From a virus: 40,538 nucleotides of DNA. Below, piece after piece: positions 4,692-22,948 of the stretch (its first letter is position 1; each line of letters starts with the position of its first letter). The DNA lies in IMG/VR virus record IMGVR_UViG_3300033148_004315, positions 1 through 40,538 of that record; one strand, 5' to 3'. Position numbers and translations under genes: made by a program. The notes below the pieces were generated by a model. That model made no database searches, had not been told where the DNA came from, and was given only the letters and a program-made list of their open reading frames with translations.

Positions 4692-5272
4692 ACCGACCCC
4701 TTTAAACGTCTCGATGCCTGGAAATGCTCGATAATCGGTCTTATTTTCCGCCGATTCTCATCGTCGAATATGCAGCAGTACTCGATAGGCAGCCGGTGGA
4801 TGTTGATCTTTCCGGCGTTCTCCCTGATAACGGACTCAAGGTTTCTCTGCTCAAGCATGTGCGGACGGTTCTTATTTGCCTTGATCCATTCTGAAACAAT
4901 ACGCCTCATCCTCGAATTATTGGCAATATAGAGCGTACCAGATAACAGCTCGCCCCGCCTTGCATGCCAGTCCCTGTAATGGCAGCCGAAATCAACGCCG
5001 TTCATATCCCCGAATAGCTGCGGATAGGAGTGAAACATAGAGTCAGCGTCTGTAAAAACAACCGAATAACCGGGAAATTTCATCATCATTCGAAGGATAA
5101 ACCTTGCTTTGTAAAGCGTATTTTTCTGCCATGTGCCGAAATTCTTGACTCTCTCGATATGGTACGGCCAAATCTCATGGAGGATCAGGCTCGCCTCTAA
5201 CGTCCTGGCCTCTTTCTCATAGCCTGTGCCGGCTGTAAAATAAGAGCAGACAACGAATTTAGATGTGGTCAT
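4688..5272 (-). CDS. Nucleotide-diphospho-sugar transferase-like protein
   Basis: 194 residues with a compact GT-A layout. The strand VVCSYFTAGTGYEKEARTL opens the fold, and NTLYKARFILRMMMKFP leads to a classic DxD metal site in VVFTDADSMFHSYP near residue 75. ELLSGTLYIANNS follows, where PF03407-type nucleotide-diphospho-sugar transferases carry their acceptor-side loop. Start ATG at 5272 with AGGAG 4 bases upstream, 14 bases inside the cupin gene. It is likely one of the sugar transferases of the cassette; donor sugar unknown. Confidence 0.7.
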   Translation of the reverse strand: MTTSKFVVCSYFTAGTGYEKEARTLEASLILHEIWPYHIERVKNFGTWQKNTLYKARFILRMMMKFPGYSVVFTDADSMFHSYPQLFGDMNGVDFGCHYRDWHARRGELLSGTLYIANNSRMRRIVSEWIKANKNRPHMLEQRNLESVIRENAGKINIHRLPIEYCCIFDDENRRKIRPIIEHFQASRRLKGSV

Positions 5273-18726: not shown

Positions 18727-19395
18727 TTATTCCTCCTTTCTCACTACCGGAAACTCTTGAATTAATTCTTCCCCCCAAATATCCCTCAAATTCTCTTTCA
18801 GAAATACCGGTATATCCAGAACCGCGCACCTGTCAATATAGCTCTTGATCCACGCCCTCTCCGGCTGTAATTTTTTCCCATACCCCGTCAGCGCACCGAT
18901 GATAACCCAGTCTATACCCTCAAGCGAATAGCACGACCTGCTCATCATCGGCTCAAAAGAGATGAATTTCACCGGCGCCCAAACTCTCTGGAAATTCTTG
19001 AACCGCTGCCAGTTTCCGTCAGCTGTCGCTTTACCTGTCAGAGAAATTCCAAGCCAGACGTTGCCGAGAATAATCCCGCCGCCGGCATTCTCAGGATACT
19101 TTGTCAACACTTGAAATGTCAGCTTTGGATATCGCTCGATAGCCTCGAATACCCTTGCTCTCCAGCCAGGCTTTACAGCGTGATGAAACAGGTCGTTTGT
19201 TGAGCACACAAAAACTTTGGAACCATCCGGTATTTTTCTAAGCTTGTGTTCCTGTAGATCCAGCCTCAATTCAGGATTCCAGCCAAACCGTTTGTAAAAC
19301 TTTCTAGCGTAGCAAAACCAGCAACTCCCGGGACAGATGCCGCGTATCGGATTCCAGGAAATGTCCGTCCAGCCGATTGATGTTTTTATGCTCAT
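18727..19395 (-). CDS. DUF5131 (phage Gp37/Gp68 family) radical-SAM-like protein
   Basis: About 222 residues. TSIGWTDISWNPIRGICPGS and then CWFCYARKFYKRF give the family's cysteine cluster C-x3-C-x2-C near residue 22-29. SKVFVCSTNDLFHHAV, LTFQVLTKYPENAG, VWLGISLTG and VKFISFEPMMS are further family blocks. The three cysteines suggest an iron-sulfur site as in radical SAM proteins; the reaction is not established for the family. The preferred start is the ATG at 19395 (AAGGA at 8 bases). An upstream in-frame extension lies inside the small membrane gene. Confidence 0.85.
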   Translation of the reverse strand: MSIKTSIGWTDISWNPIRGICPGSCWFCYARKFYKRFGWNPELRLDLQEHKLRKIPDGSKVFVCSTNDLFHHAVKPGWRARVFEAIERYPKLTFQVLTKYPENAGGGIILGNVWLGISLTGKATADGNWQRFKNFQRVWAPVKFISFEPMMSRSCYSLEGIDWVIIGALTGYGKKLQPERAWIKSYIDRCAVLDIPVFLKENLRDIWGEELIQEFPVVRKEE

Positions 19396-19396
19396 T

Positions 19397-19552
19397 TCAT
19401 ATTTCCTTATCCACAAGATCCCTAAGCTTCCGCTCATAATCATCTTGATCCGATAACTTGCTAACACAGCATAAAGCAGTAATTAAAATCCCAGCAAACA
19501 TACCCACAAATAATGCGACGCCGATTAAAAATAATGCTAGTCCTAAGCTCAT
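19397..19552 (-). CDS. Small membrane protein (51 residues)
   Basis: Starts MSLGLALFLIGVALFV; a TM helix covers residues 2-28 (ending GILITALCC), followed by a charged tail with SKLSDQDDYERKLRD. AGGAGG lies 6 bases before the ATG, and the gene exactly fills the gap between its neighbours. Possible membrane-acting early protein. Not recognised. Confidence 0.65.
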   Translation of the reverse strand: MSLGLALFLIGVALFVGMFAGILITALCCVSKLSDQDDYERKLRDLVDKEI

Positions 19553-19553
19553 T

Positions 19554-19985
19554 TCAATCCTCCTTTAATACCCCGGTTTTTTTCAAAACGCTTTTCTGGA
19601 ATTCTCTCTCAAAATTTTTCTGATATTGCTTCCCTTTTCTGCAGCGCATGCACGGAAAAAAAACATCGTATCCATTCTTCTCCCGGATCACTCCACCGAT
19701 GTTATTACAATACTCGCAATATTGGTCTTCTAACTCCTCAATCCTTGCGTCTGAGCGTTCAATAGACACTTGCTCAATCGCTTGCCTTATTTCAGCTATG
19801 AGGGGAAGCCGCTTATACGGGTGCATCTCAATAAGATAATCGACGGCTTTTTTCAAAAACTTTTCATCATGGAATTTCAGCTTCTGGTACATTTTTTCTT
19901 TCTGAAAGCTCGTATAATCCAAGCGAAAGTATTGCTCAATGTCTTTCACTAAACAATCAAACCTGAATGGATCAACTATTTGCAT
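19554..19985 (-). CDS. Zinc-binding protein, helicase-loader-like candidate
   Basis: 143 residues. The N-terminal 80 residues are helical (FRLDYTSFQKEKMYQKLKF, FLKKAVDYLIEMHPYKRLPL, IAEIRQAIEQ), like G39P-type phage loaders/inhibitors of the replicative helicase. A zinc site follows: QYCEYCNNIGG and FPCMRCRKGKQ (about residues 88-120). Its location directly downstream of the replication initiator supports a replication role. The loader name is an analogy. Start ATG overlaps the upstream stop. Confidence 0.6.
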   Translation of the reverse strand: MQIVDPFRFDCLVKDIEQYFRLDYTSFQKEKMYQKLKFHDEKFLKKAVDYLIEMHPYKRLPLIAEIRQAIEQVSIERSDARIEELEDQYCEYCNNIGGVIREKNGYDVFFPCMRCRKGKQYQKNFEREFQKSVLKKTGVLKED

Positions 19986-20710
19986 TATAATAAACCCTCC
20001 TTTTTTAGCTGTTCAGCTTTGTTTTTCGCCCAGGAATCACCATCCTCCCTCTGCTTCTTTTTCGTGCCGCCGGAATCCTGAGTCCGCCGCAACCAGTTTG
20101 ATATAAAGCGCGCATAGTTAGATTTTCTTTTTGCCGGATTGGCAATGAGCCAATCGCCCATATAAAGCAACTCTTGTTCAACATCACATGCAGGATAAGT
20201 TTTCTTCCAGCGAGACAAATCTTTTTCTTTTATGTTTTCAAATGTTTCAGCTTCAAAGTTAAAAAGTATTGGCATCTTTTCTTCTATTCCTTCCTTCCTT
20301 CCTTTAACTTCCTTTAACTTAAACTTAGGGGGCAAAATCCGGAAGTCTCCGGAGGACGCCGGAGCCACCTCATATGGAGCAACCTCAGATTGAGCTTCTC
20401 TATCTTTTCTAAGTCCAATTTGGAAATCTTCAAATTTTTCATATTGAATGGCAATTTTATCATTATTTGGGTATATTTTTATTAATCCAATTTCAGCCAA
20501 TTCATTTAAAGTGTCTGCAATTTTTTTTATTGTCCAATTAAAATATGGAATTATTTCAATTTTTAAATCCTCTAAATCATCAAAGGCTATTCTTCCTTCT
20601 CTATCTAAATGTGGTAGAATCATAAACCACATAACTTTTGTTTTATCTAAAACTTTAGCAATTTTCTTTGAATTACTTACTCGCTTATCTATCATTCTAC
20701 CCCTCGCCAT
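19985..20710 (-). CDS. Replication initiation protein (winged-helix type)
   Basis: 241 residues. The opening ARGRMIDKRVSNSKKIAKVL and VMWFMILPHLDREGRI is a common start of phage replisome-organiser proteins. Residues 20-95 form a winged helix (ADTLNELAEIGLIKIYPN). A linker with VAPYEVAPASSG and a basic FKLKEVKGRKEG follows, and the C-terminal part has a DnaD-like YARFISNWLRRTQ segment. Expected to bind the phage origin and recruit the helicase machinery. No iteron cluster is visible inside the gene by eye. Confidence 0.72.
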   Translation of the reverse strand: MARGRMIDKRVSNSKKIAKVLDKTKVMWFMILPHLDREGRIAFDDLEDLKIEIIPYFNWTIKKIADTLNELAEIGLIKIYPNNDKIAIQYEKFEDFQIGLRKDREAQSEVAPYEVAPASSGDFRILPPKFKLKEVKGRKEGIEEKMPILFNFEAETFENIKEKDLSRWKKTYPACDVEQELLYMGDWLIANPAKRKSNYARFISNWLRRTQDSGGTKKKQREDGDSWAKNKAEQLKKEGLL

Positions 20711-20714
20711 TTTT

Positions 20715-21254
20715 CTAATTCCCTTTTATTTTCTTCCAACAAATTCCACAAAAATATTTAATTGCCTTATCTTCTGGATTCCATGGTTTATGCAACATTT
20801 TTGAACAAGCTAATTCCATTGCATCTTTCACCTCTTGTTTGGGAAGAGATTTAAGGAATCGCTTTAATGAAGTTTTCTGAAATGATTCAGAAAGCCACCA
20901 TTTTTTAAAATATGAATGATAAATTTCATCAATTTCATCAATGTCGGCTTGTAATCTTTTCTCAATTTTCTCTAAAAACTTATTATATTCTTTGATTTGA
21001 AGTTCTTTTTCTTTTAAAATTTCTAAATTTTCAATTAATGAATTAGGAATTTTTTTAAGTGGGATTCCACCTTTACCTCGATTGCAATCAAAACAGGCAG
21101 TAATAAGATTGTTTATATCGTCCTTTCCTTTTTTGGATTTAGGGTTTATGTGATCTATTTCAAGTGTTGTCTCAGGTGGAGTTTTCCCGCAATATTGACA
21201 TTGAAATCCATCTCTTTTAAAAACTTCAAATCGCAGCTTTTTAGATATTGCCAT
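20715..21254 (-). CDS. HNH endonuclease with C-terminal helical domain
   Basis: 179 residues. McrA-type HNH with zinc cysteines: FEVFKRDGFQCQYCGKTPPE, LEIDHINPKSKKGKDDINNL, ITACFDCNRGKGG (residues 9-66), with catalytic IDHI...NL. A helical half of about 110 residues (KEYNKFLEKIEKRLQADIDE, FLKSLPKQEVKDAMELAC) has YFCGICWKKIKG at its end. HNH proteins with this extension occur next to phage initiators and may have a replication or packaging role. The leader is the pseudoknot-terminator element at 21274-21390. ATG at 21254 with AAGGA at 7 bases. Confidence 0.82.
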   Translation of the reverse strand: MAISKKLRFEVFKRDGFQCQYCGKTPPETTLEIDHINPKSKKGKDDINNLITACFDCNRGKGGIPLKKIPNSLIENLEILKEKELQIKEYNKFLEKIEKRLQADIDEIDEIYHSYFKKWWLSESFQKTSLKRFLKSLPKQEVKDAMELACSKMLHKPWNPEDKAIKYFCGICWKKIKGN

Positions 21255-21273
21255 CAATATTTCCTTTTAATAT

Positions 21274-21390
21274 AAAAAAAGCCTCCGGTTAACGCCTTGG
21301 ATGAGCCTAGTTTTCCCGGATGGGAAGAAAGACAGACGCATAGACCGGAGGCCTTATTTTTTTCTTGTTTCATTTTCTAGGCTCATCGCA
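21274..21390 (-). ncRNA. Structured RNA or attenuator with interleaved helices (pseudoknot)
   Basis: Read on the minus strand from just after the promoter at 21424-21396: an 11-base arm GATGAGCCTAG (21387-21377), a 9-base arm GCCTCCGGT (21352-21344), a 5-pair hairpin TTCCC/GGGAA (21326-21313), the complement of the first arm (21310-21300), then the complement of the second arm (21289-21281) and seven Ts. All pairings are perfect. The order A-B-A'-B' can only form an H-type pseudoknot or two competing structures, the second being an intrinsic terminator. It could be a free RNA of about 115 bases, or a switch controlling the HNH/replication genes. A 10-codon ORF starts at 21386 and ends just before the second arm. 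Confidence 0.7.
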
Positions 21391-21395
21391 CTTAA

Positions 21396-21424
21396 ATCCT
21401 ACAAAATCACACCACGTTTGTCAA
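21396..21424 (-). promoter_or_regulatory. Sigma-70-type promoter for the structured RNA/replication operon
   Basis: On the minus strand TTGACA (21424-21419), a 17-base spacer, TAGGAT (21401-21396). Predicted start about 21390, only a few bases before the first pairing arm of the structured RNA. It lies between a terminator for the upstream recombination genes and the replication genes. Confidence 0.72.
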
Positions 21425-21429
21425 GCAAA

Positions 21430-21498
21430 AAAAACAAGAGAGCCGCCTCCGATATAGCCAAAAAAAGGAGGGGAAAATCTGGATGAAGGAGGCGGCTC
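21430..21498 (-). terminator. Intrinsic terminator after the recombination genes
   Basis: An 11-base perfect inverted repeat (21440-21450 with 21488-21498, GAGCCGCCTCC/GGAGGCGGCTC) with a 37-base loop. Read on the minus strand it is followed by TCTTGTTTTTTTT. It lies 12 bases after the stop of the RecB-like nuclease gene and ends just before the TTGACA of the next promoter. Confidence 0.75.
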
Positions 21499-21509
21499 GT
21501 CTTGTCATC

Positions 21510-22169
21510 TCAAAACTCTTTTTTCAATTTTCTCTGCAACTGGTAATTCTTGAGGCAGTTAGCGAATATCTTCCATGCCGTCTCTCGCGTCCTCTTTCCA
21601 ACCGTACGCTCCATAAACGTCTCATCCTCTGTGCGCGGAATGTTGAGTATCCGGACAAACTGCACTTCACTACCAGCCTCTTCAAGCAGCCTTGCATACG
21701 CTTCCACCTGGATGACCATTTCGTCATAGATGCCGGACCCGGTTTTAAGGTCAATCAACTCCAATTGCCCATCGATGTTTGCATAGATATCTGGCGTTCC
21801 GCCATACCGATATTTTTCACTGATAAGCGGGACTTCAATCGACACCGGCTTGATTTTCTTGTTTCTTATCCATTCGAAAAAACTAAGCGCCGAATTCTCC
21901 GCCGCCGTTATCTGGTTTTTGGAATAATCGCTAGTATCGGTTTCAATTCCAAGCAGCCAATCGGTAACCATCGCATGCGCCAGCGTCCCGATTTCAGCTT
22001 TATCGTCTTTGTATCGCTTTGAGTCAATGCCTTCCAATCCTATGCGGTTAGCCCAATTTACTAATACCTGTTTGTTCCAACCGAGCTGAGAGCCGGTTAT
22101 CGTCGTAACGCCAGGCACTCTCGTTCCATCAGCCAGCCTGTATTGGATGTGTGCTTTTGATTTTCCCAT
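21510..22169 (-). CDS. PD-(D/E)XK nuclease (RecB-like exonuclease)
   Basis: About 219 residues. Motifs in order: GTLAHAMVTDWL (about residue 61), the catalytic YGGTPDIYAN then QLELIDLKTGSGIYDEM (about 122-149), and QVEAYARLLEEAG, the QxxxY motif of RecB/Cas4-type nucleases. It lies directly after the ERF gene and would resect DNA ends for annealing. Two ATGs follow AGGGGG; the second (22169) has the better 5-base spacing and is chosen. The gene overlaps the ERF stop codon. Confidence 0.85.
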   Translation of the reverse strand: MGKSKAHIQYRLADGTRVPGVTTITGSQLGWNKQVLVNWANRIGLEGIDSKRYKDDKAEIGTLAHAMVTDWLLGIETDTSDYSKNQITAAENSALSFFEWIRNKKIKPVSIEVPLISEKYRYGGTPDIYANIDGQLELIDLKTGSGIYDEMVIQVEAYARLLEEAGSEVQFVRILNIPRTEDETFMERTVGKRTRETAWKIFANCLKNYQLQRKLKKEF

Positions 22170-22948
22170 CATGTCCCCCTGTATGCTTCGATCATCTGCG
22201 CATAGATTTTTGGTATCTCTTTTGCCGGCACCTGGTTTGATTTCTCGTATCCGGCGTTGCCAAGAATCTCGTAATACGCTTCTTTGCCGAGTACTTCCTT
22301 GATTTTTGCGAAATAATCAAGCGCCTCGAATTTGGAGACGCGCTTTTTAGTACCGTCGCTCAACGTAATTGTTATCGTCCTGAACGATTCTTTCCGAGCT
22401 TCATCATCATAATCATCATAGATAGCCTCATCCAGCGGATCGGCTCGATGGCTAGTTTGCGGCTTGATTGGTTTCGGTTTGCCATTGATTTCATGACTCT
22501 CGTTTTCCGGGTCCTTCGCGTCGTCCGTCGGCACAAGCAGCATCTGCAAGAGCGCATATTTGTGCGCCACAGAGAGCGCCTTGTTTCCGGCCTTGTCACC
22601 ACTGTCCATTCCCTCGCCGATAACAACCGAGTCAACATAGCTTCCGTCGGACGCATAAAACCGGTAACGAATCGTGTAGATCCGGTAGATCAAAACGCCG
22701 CCGCTCCGGCTCGTTCTCTCCTCGTGCTTGGCGTCCAGAACTTCCGGGACTGTGAACACTTTGTGTTTTGCGAATATCTTATGCACCTCGTTGTACACGT
22801 CATCAATGCCGCGAAAAGAATATTTTTGCTGGACGTTCTTCCTGTCCTTTCCGATTGTCTGGACGTCTGCCATGATCGCCGGAATTTTCTCGTAGATTAA
22901 TTCCTTTTTAACCGTTTTTTCTTTCGTCTTTTTTTGCTCTTCCATCAT
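22169..22948 (-). CDS. erf: ERF-family single-strand annealing protein
   Basis: 259 residues of the ERF superfamily (PF04404). Diagnostic stretches: YSFRGIDDVYNEVHKIFAKH (about 44-63), YRIYTIRYRFYASDGSYVDS and VVIGEGMDSGDKAGNKALSV then AHKYALLQMLLVPTDDAKDP (about 108-146). These proteins bind single-stranded DNA and anneal complementary strands in phage recombination. The C-terminal 100 residues are variable, with a charged linker. Start after GGGAGGACT; overlaps the upstream coiled-coil gene as ATGA. Confidence 0.92.
   Translation of the reverse strand: MMEEQKKTKEKTVKKELIYEKIPAIMADVQTIGKDRKNVQQKYSFRGIDDVYNEVHKIFAKHKVFTVPEVLDAKHEERTSRSGGVLIYRIYTIRYRFYASDGSYVDSVVIGEGMDSGDKAGNKALSVAHKYALLQMLLVPTDDAKDPENESHEINGKPKPIKPQTSHRADPLDEAIYDDYDDEARKESFRTITITLSDGTKKRVSKFEALDYFAKIKEVLGKEAYYEILGNAGYEKSNQVPAKEIPKIYAQMIEAYRGT

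Follow-up and report, generated by a model that had tools for sequence, protein, structure and literature searches.

The 40.5-kb window analysed here, a phage record from IMG/VR taken at its full length, carries an element on its minus strand (positions 21274–21424) that probably serves as a cis-acting leader RNA, a transcription attenuator of the HNH/replication operon that follows it. A short RNA placed ahead of the replication genes would, on this reading, probably act as an on/off switch for those genes. The assignment draws on features that can be read from the sequences themselves: complementary arms, promoter-like sites, the location of the element, compensated change in a sibling phage and recurrence at replication operons. 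An intrinsic terminator lies between the predicted promoter and the first gene of the operon, the arrangement by which a leader-embedded attenuator is recognised at the sequence level.

All features of the element are on the minus strand. The predicted promoter consists of a −35 hexamer TTGACA (21419–21424) and a −10 hexamer TAGGAT (21396–21401), separated by a 17-nt spacer and matching the consensus at 10 of 12 positions. Arm A, GATGAGCCTAG (21377–21387), has its first base 8 nt past the −10 hexamer, and is followed by arm B, GCCTCCGGT (21344–21352), which provides the 5′ half of the terminator stem. A five-pair loop hairpin, TTCCC-ATCC-GGGAA (21313–21326), adjoins the 5′ side of arm A′, CTAGGCTCATC (21300–21310), which lies within the terminator loop and forms 11 perfect pairs with arm A. 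Arm B′, ACCGGAGGC (21281–21289), supplies the 3′ strand of the terminator stem with nine perfect pairs to arm B, and a T7 tract (21274–21280) directly 3′ of it completes the intrinsic terminator. The original prediction of a promoter, arms in the order A-B-A′-B′ with 11- and 9-base complements, a 5-pair hairpin and a T7 tract is borne out at every position, as is that of a 10-codon, near-leaderless ORF (21354–21386, ATG to TAA), the TAA of which stands directly 5′ of arm B; this ORF is probably incidental. Upstream, the exonuclease gene (21510–22172) is followed by a terminator of its own (21440–21498) with an 11-bp stem and a 37-nt loop, which is kept in the sibling phage and is predicted to insulate the element from upstream transcription. 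The loop of this terminator is unusually long.

The full minus-strand RNA has a predicted folding energy of −37.2 kcal/mol (z = −3.2), and none of 200 dinucleotide shuffles was as stable; the plus-strand RNA was rejected, with a fold z of −0.3. Shuffling of the 60 nt upstream produced an arm A as good in only 2 of 2000 trials (p ~0.001), and a search of the 40.5-kb window found no copies of the arm sequences beyond their own two places each. In a nascent RNA ending at A′, the predicted fold contains all 11 A:A′ pairs, whereas the fold of the full RNA favours B:B′ and, as a nested structure, has lost A:A′. The folding programs used cannot score pseudoknots, and coexistence of the two helices as a pseudoknot could occur. 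The spacers between the arms, of 23, 33 and 10 nt, make such a pseudoknot feasible in the window.

The HNH endonuclease gene (20715–21257) begins 16 nt past the T7 tract if its start codon is TTG and 19 nt past it if ATG is used, with no separate sigma-70 promoter seen between tract and gene, and the replication initiation gene (19985–20710) is next in the operon. The HNH protein, of 180 aa, contains an HNH domain (PF01844, E 1e-15) and no other recognised domain. Its profile finds its best solved relatives among IscB, Cas9 and other HNH domains, with TbaIscB matching at E 1e-10 over positions 19–154. An RNA-guided HNH of the IscB/omegaRNA kind was set aside as a remote idea, given the 180-aa length, the HNH domain standing alone and an RNA sequence that is not conserved. 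In most related loci, the gene after HNH encodes a replication initiator or a DnaD-like loader, followed by DnaB in three of them (L155, L168 and L204); in the phage collection, HNH likewise precedes replication genes in Louie, D65, P27 and D14C. The first 100 positions of PHROG 5718 match the L155 initiator and positions 117–217 match the window HNH, which suggests that fused initiator-HNH forms may exist. Among sampled genomes, HNH was found in 3 of 398 and in 1 of 395. Elsewhere in the window, 18727–19467 encodes a Gp37/Gp68 (DUF5131)-like phage protein with related genes in many actinophages and in the archaeal virus ANMV-1.

The most direct structural evidence comes from a sibling phage, L002 (IMGVR_UViG_3300033153_004578), which is ~90% identical to the window on both flanks of the element and shares 92% identity in the exonuclease and 97% in the initiator. 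Its promoter aligns with that of the window at 27 of 29 positions, including an identical −35 hexamer, and the sequences diverge between promoter and T-run. Within this stretch, L002 has arms A CCGGTAAGCAA, B GAGGCCCCTC and A′ TTGCTTACCGG, then B′ and T7; A and A′ match perfectly over 11 pairs, and a hairpin CCCG-TACG-CGGG (CCCGTACGCGGG) stands in the same place as the window loop hairpin. Both arm pairs have thus been replaced relative to the window, yet remain perfectly complementary in an unchanged layout, and none of 2000 shuffles gave an arm A as good. Arms rewritten yet paired in near-identical phages constitute unusually strong structural evidence, and are the opposite of the uncompensated arm changes by which the original prediction was to be judged wrong. 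Strict covariation evidence comprises this one sibling pair for the present type, and seven sequences for the int-alpA type considered below. No HNH gene is present in L002, either at the element or elsewhere on its 40-kb record; the replication initiator gene directly follows the element, so the RNA is not tied to HNH. A promoter-pattern search of viral contigs matched L002 alone, an exonuclease alignment against genome contigs found no relative, and a scan of 80 ERF loci yielded no further convincing element.

A mechanism that would account for these features begins at the element's own promoter, from which an RNA of ~115 nt would extend to the B:B′-T7 terminator unless polymerase continues into the HNH and initiator genes. 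Arm A at the 5′ end would pair with A′ in the terminator loop, and because A′ is made before B′, the A:A′ helix could form first and then either be opened or be kept as a pseudoknot when B:B′ closes. Since A:A′ can precede the terminator helix, whatever frees or occupies arm A would set the fraction of read-through. Candidate effectors are the HNH or initiator protein, an RNA, or, where the short ORF is present, a ribosome translating it. We infer that the RNA is transcribed, that A:A′ alters termination and that a sensor acts on it; as to the direction of the switch, our guess is that A:A′ favours read-through.

The same arm order recurs in other phages. A scan of HNH-homologue loci, which like the other compared loci are mostly metagenomic contigs, identified A-B-A′-B′-T directly 5′ of HNH homologues at 11 loci (L007, L155, L157, L159, L168, L182, L199, L200, L201, L204 and L216) and, less strongly, at L158, L165 and L174. 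In L268 and L255, this order precedes the initiator with no HNH relative between, and arm A is individually weak. By shuffles, arm A is marginal in L155 (108/2000), L268 (112/2000) and L255 (331/2000). The L157 element is minimal: its terminator hairpin has a 15-base loop, of which A′ takes up 11 bases. Except in L002 and the int-alpA group, arms were found by complementarity, and that they pair does not in itself prove the structure. An enrichment test was confined to loci chosen by protein similarity only, with an HNH-leader terminator defined as one within 60 nt before HNH: arm A reached p ≤ 0.01 in 6 of 12 HNH-leader terminators versus 3 of 158 other terminators at the same loci (Fisher 2.3e-6). 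A terminator of this kind precedes HNH at only those 12 of ~145 HNH loci. The distance from T-run to next gene is about 10–35 nt.

Most of these elements have a strong sigma-70-type promoter or a TAnnTTTG motif shortly 5′ of arm A. The pattern TTGACx-N17-TAxxxT occurs 1–14 nt upstream of arm A in L007, L157, L200, L216 and L188, and TAnnTTTG, of Bacteroidota type, lies 12–21 nt upstream in Bacteroidota-like phages; L159, L182 and L204 have no clear promoter within 60 nt before arm A. For transcripts ending at A′, A:A′ appears in the folds of all 17 elements, and the full RNA favours B:B′ in 16 of 17; because the elements were selected for having these arms, the folds speak to the order of formation, not to function. 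In L157, L268 and L204, which have almost no linker, a full pseudoknot would be strained, and the two helices are likely to exclude each other or to pair only in part. Several scanner matches (L013, L076, L117, the Latescibacteria loci and L253) were rejected as lying inside coding or far-spread regions. Krappator27, which has the closest HNH by DNA, was discarded as well, a repressor gene preceding HNH with no such leader. On the minus strand of L169 (~4848–4960), the order A-B-hairpin-A′-B′-T is found away from HNH, with A TGGGTAGGAC and B AAGCCCTTGAG. Another type of HNH leader is present in L183 and L197 (~900–1075 and 2093–2260), where a hairpin loop TTGATAA is complementary to a later loop TTATCAA; these loops before the HNH start may possibly form a kissing pair.

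The element had been proposed as a candidate new RNA, a claim that holds insofar as no Rfam family matches the window at its cut-off, and is qualified by a known motif, int-alpA RNA (RF02996), whose arms follow an identical order and which takes the corresponding place in the operons of other phages. The best sub-threshold Rfam match within the element, Phe_leader (26.1 bits versus a cut-off of 55), was rejected because its score comes from AT-rich sequence and from the terminator stem. The int-alpA covariance model (cut-off 35.8 bits) has no match in the window, and none at E ≤ 10 in 21240–21520. Like the window element, int-alpA combines the order A-B-A′-B′ with a U-rich stretch, a mobile-element setting and, at seven related phage loci, a place directly before HNH. 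Its U-run, however, follows A′, with the second pseudoknot arm downstream, whereas the U7 of the window comes after B′; its hairpin lies between A and B rather than between B and A′, and the two share no sequence.

The seven HNH loci (L170, L173, L177, L180, L188, L189 and L190, ~2894–2971) share an alignable int-alpA-type leader, which scores above the cut-off in L170 (36.8 bits) and at 24.8–34.5 bits in the other six. The B helix covaries: when the strands are assigned by anchored position, all six B:B′ pairs form in each of the seven, with up to three pair types per position, compared with 60% pairing when arms are swapped between sequences; the leader hairpin pairs at 98% versus 58% for swapped arms, and the A1 part is invariant and hence silent. 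No T-run follows the last arm in these leaders, which would fit pseudoknot leaders that share a position but differ in their output step. Arm B of the seven has two possible partners downstream, the repeats GGGTGC and GTGCGG, of which the latter adjoins the ribosome site. A place before phage HNH genes is a setting absent from the name of the motif. The int-alpA cut-off was reached in 50 of 398 genomes. In four int-alpA loci from Pseudomonadota (L285, L288, L295 and L299), a loop such as CCTTCAA was seen by eye to have two complementary TTGAAGG copies downstream, the second near a start codon, suggesting a possible translation switch.

Other regulatory systems offer partial parallels. The pT181 attenuator serves a plasmid replication gene. 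Attenuators of its type resemble the window element in having a 5′ leader that contains a terminator, with an upstream arm in competition (PMC4878617); in pT181, however, the partner of the anti-terminator is the 5′ half of the terminator stem, whereas arm A of the window pairs with the loop, and no antisense gene is seen in the window. In T4, RNA structures or a terminator likewise control nuclease genes of the phage, the free-standing homing endonuclease genes mobE and segB together with I-TevI (PMC2988022); the hairpins there lie over the ribosome site or the terminator lies inside the gene, and the available part of that account describes no pseudoknot-ordered leader. Two phage RNAs, the P4 CI RNA and IsrK of Gifsy-1, also control whether transcription terminates or runs on into a phage operon (PMC4825925). 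P4 relies on a processed antisense RNA pairing seqA and seqC, and neither RNA has a sequence or Rfam match in the window.

Gifsy-1 IsrK, in which read-through of the terminator enters a phage operon while the short form acts in trans, is the precedent (PMC4825925) for reading the element as a stand-alone phage sRNA of ~115 nt that acts in trans, read-through yielding a second, mRNA isoform. The paired 5′ end and terminator would then stabilise the RNA, and A, A′ or the loops would target other RNAs. Although the element has its own predicted promoter and terminator and is kept in L002 without HNH, we consider this unlikely: neither arm A nor arm B has a further site in the window. The original prediction had offered either a termination switch or a stand-alone RNA; the element is genuine, with compensated arms, and its placement ahead of the HNH/replication genes suits the switch; the stand-alone RNA is less favoured because of the position at the head of the replication operon, the short distance from T-run to gene and the int-alpA-like leaders that occupy the same position without a final T-run.

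It is distinctly improbable that the element works as an immunity or copy-control RNA like P4 CI, the short RNA or loop A′ binding in trans to arm A on leaders still being transcribed, whether from the same phage or from a superinfecting one, to force termination of the replication operon, with arm divergence as specificity. The operon-head position and termination output recall P4 immunity (PMC4825925), arms have been replaced between phages with 97% identical initiators, and pT181-type attenuators likewise switch partner via arm changes (PMC4878617). Within a single molecule, however, A would find A′ before any partner in trans, and such cis pairing accounts for their complementarity without trans action; no separate antisense gene was seen.

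Very little probability attaches to a type III toxin-antitoxin-like arrangement, in which the pseudoknot RNA would be the antitoxin of the HNH nuclease and the terminator would set the RNA excess. ToxIN does share the order promoter, pseudoknot RNA, terminator and nuclease gene (PMC5772629), but 21100–21600 contains no tandem repeat family, the HNH is a predicted DNase (PF01844) rather than an endoribonuclease of ToxN/CptN/TenpN fold, L002 has the RNA without the nuclease, and the RNA sequence is not conserved among HNH proteins 40–60% identical. Leader-peptide attenuation, also raised at the outset, fares as poorly: a ribosome on the 10-codon ORF would cover A, or B when at the stop codon, and so choose between A:A′ and the terminator. 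ORFs of 10–12 codons ending just before B occur in the window, L002 and L007, but are absent in L155, L157, L159 and L204, their codon content differs, and the AT-rich spacer makes stop codons cheap; as a general mechanism it is unlikely. That the element is an ordinary intrinsic terminator with a chance A:A′ match has a negligible probability, for although the terminator alone is unremarkable and arm A reaches p ≤ 0.05 in 9 of 158 other nearby terminators (about the chance rate), the shuffle results for the window, the enrichment at HNH leaders and the compensated arms of L002 argue against it, the last coming close to refuting it.

The element exemplifies a common RNA anatomy, a 5′ end complementary to a terminator loop, located where HNH/replication operons begin, both in phages with sigma-70-type promoters and in those with promoters of Bacteroidota type, and such leaders are invisible to sequence-based RNA families. 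A broader interpretation, which we hold to be quite doubtful, is a widespread phage replication switch of interchangeable specificity, in which self-complementary arms would be swapped wholesale between close phages and each leader would recognise only its own kind, controlling by termination its own replication operon or that of a superinfecting relative. The occurrence of int-alpA relatives as leaders of HNH/replication operons makes the function of int-alpA testable, and arms that are rewritten yet paired in near-identical phages raise the question of what drives arm turnover.
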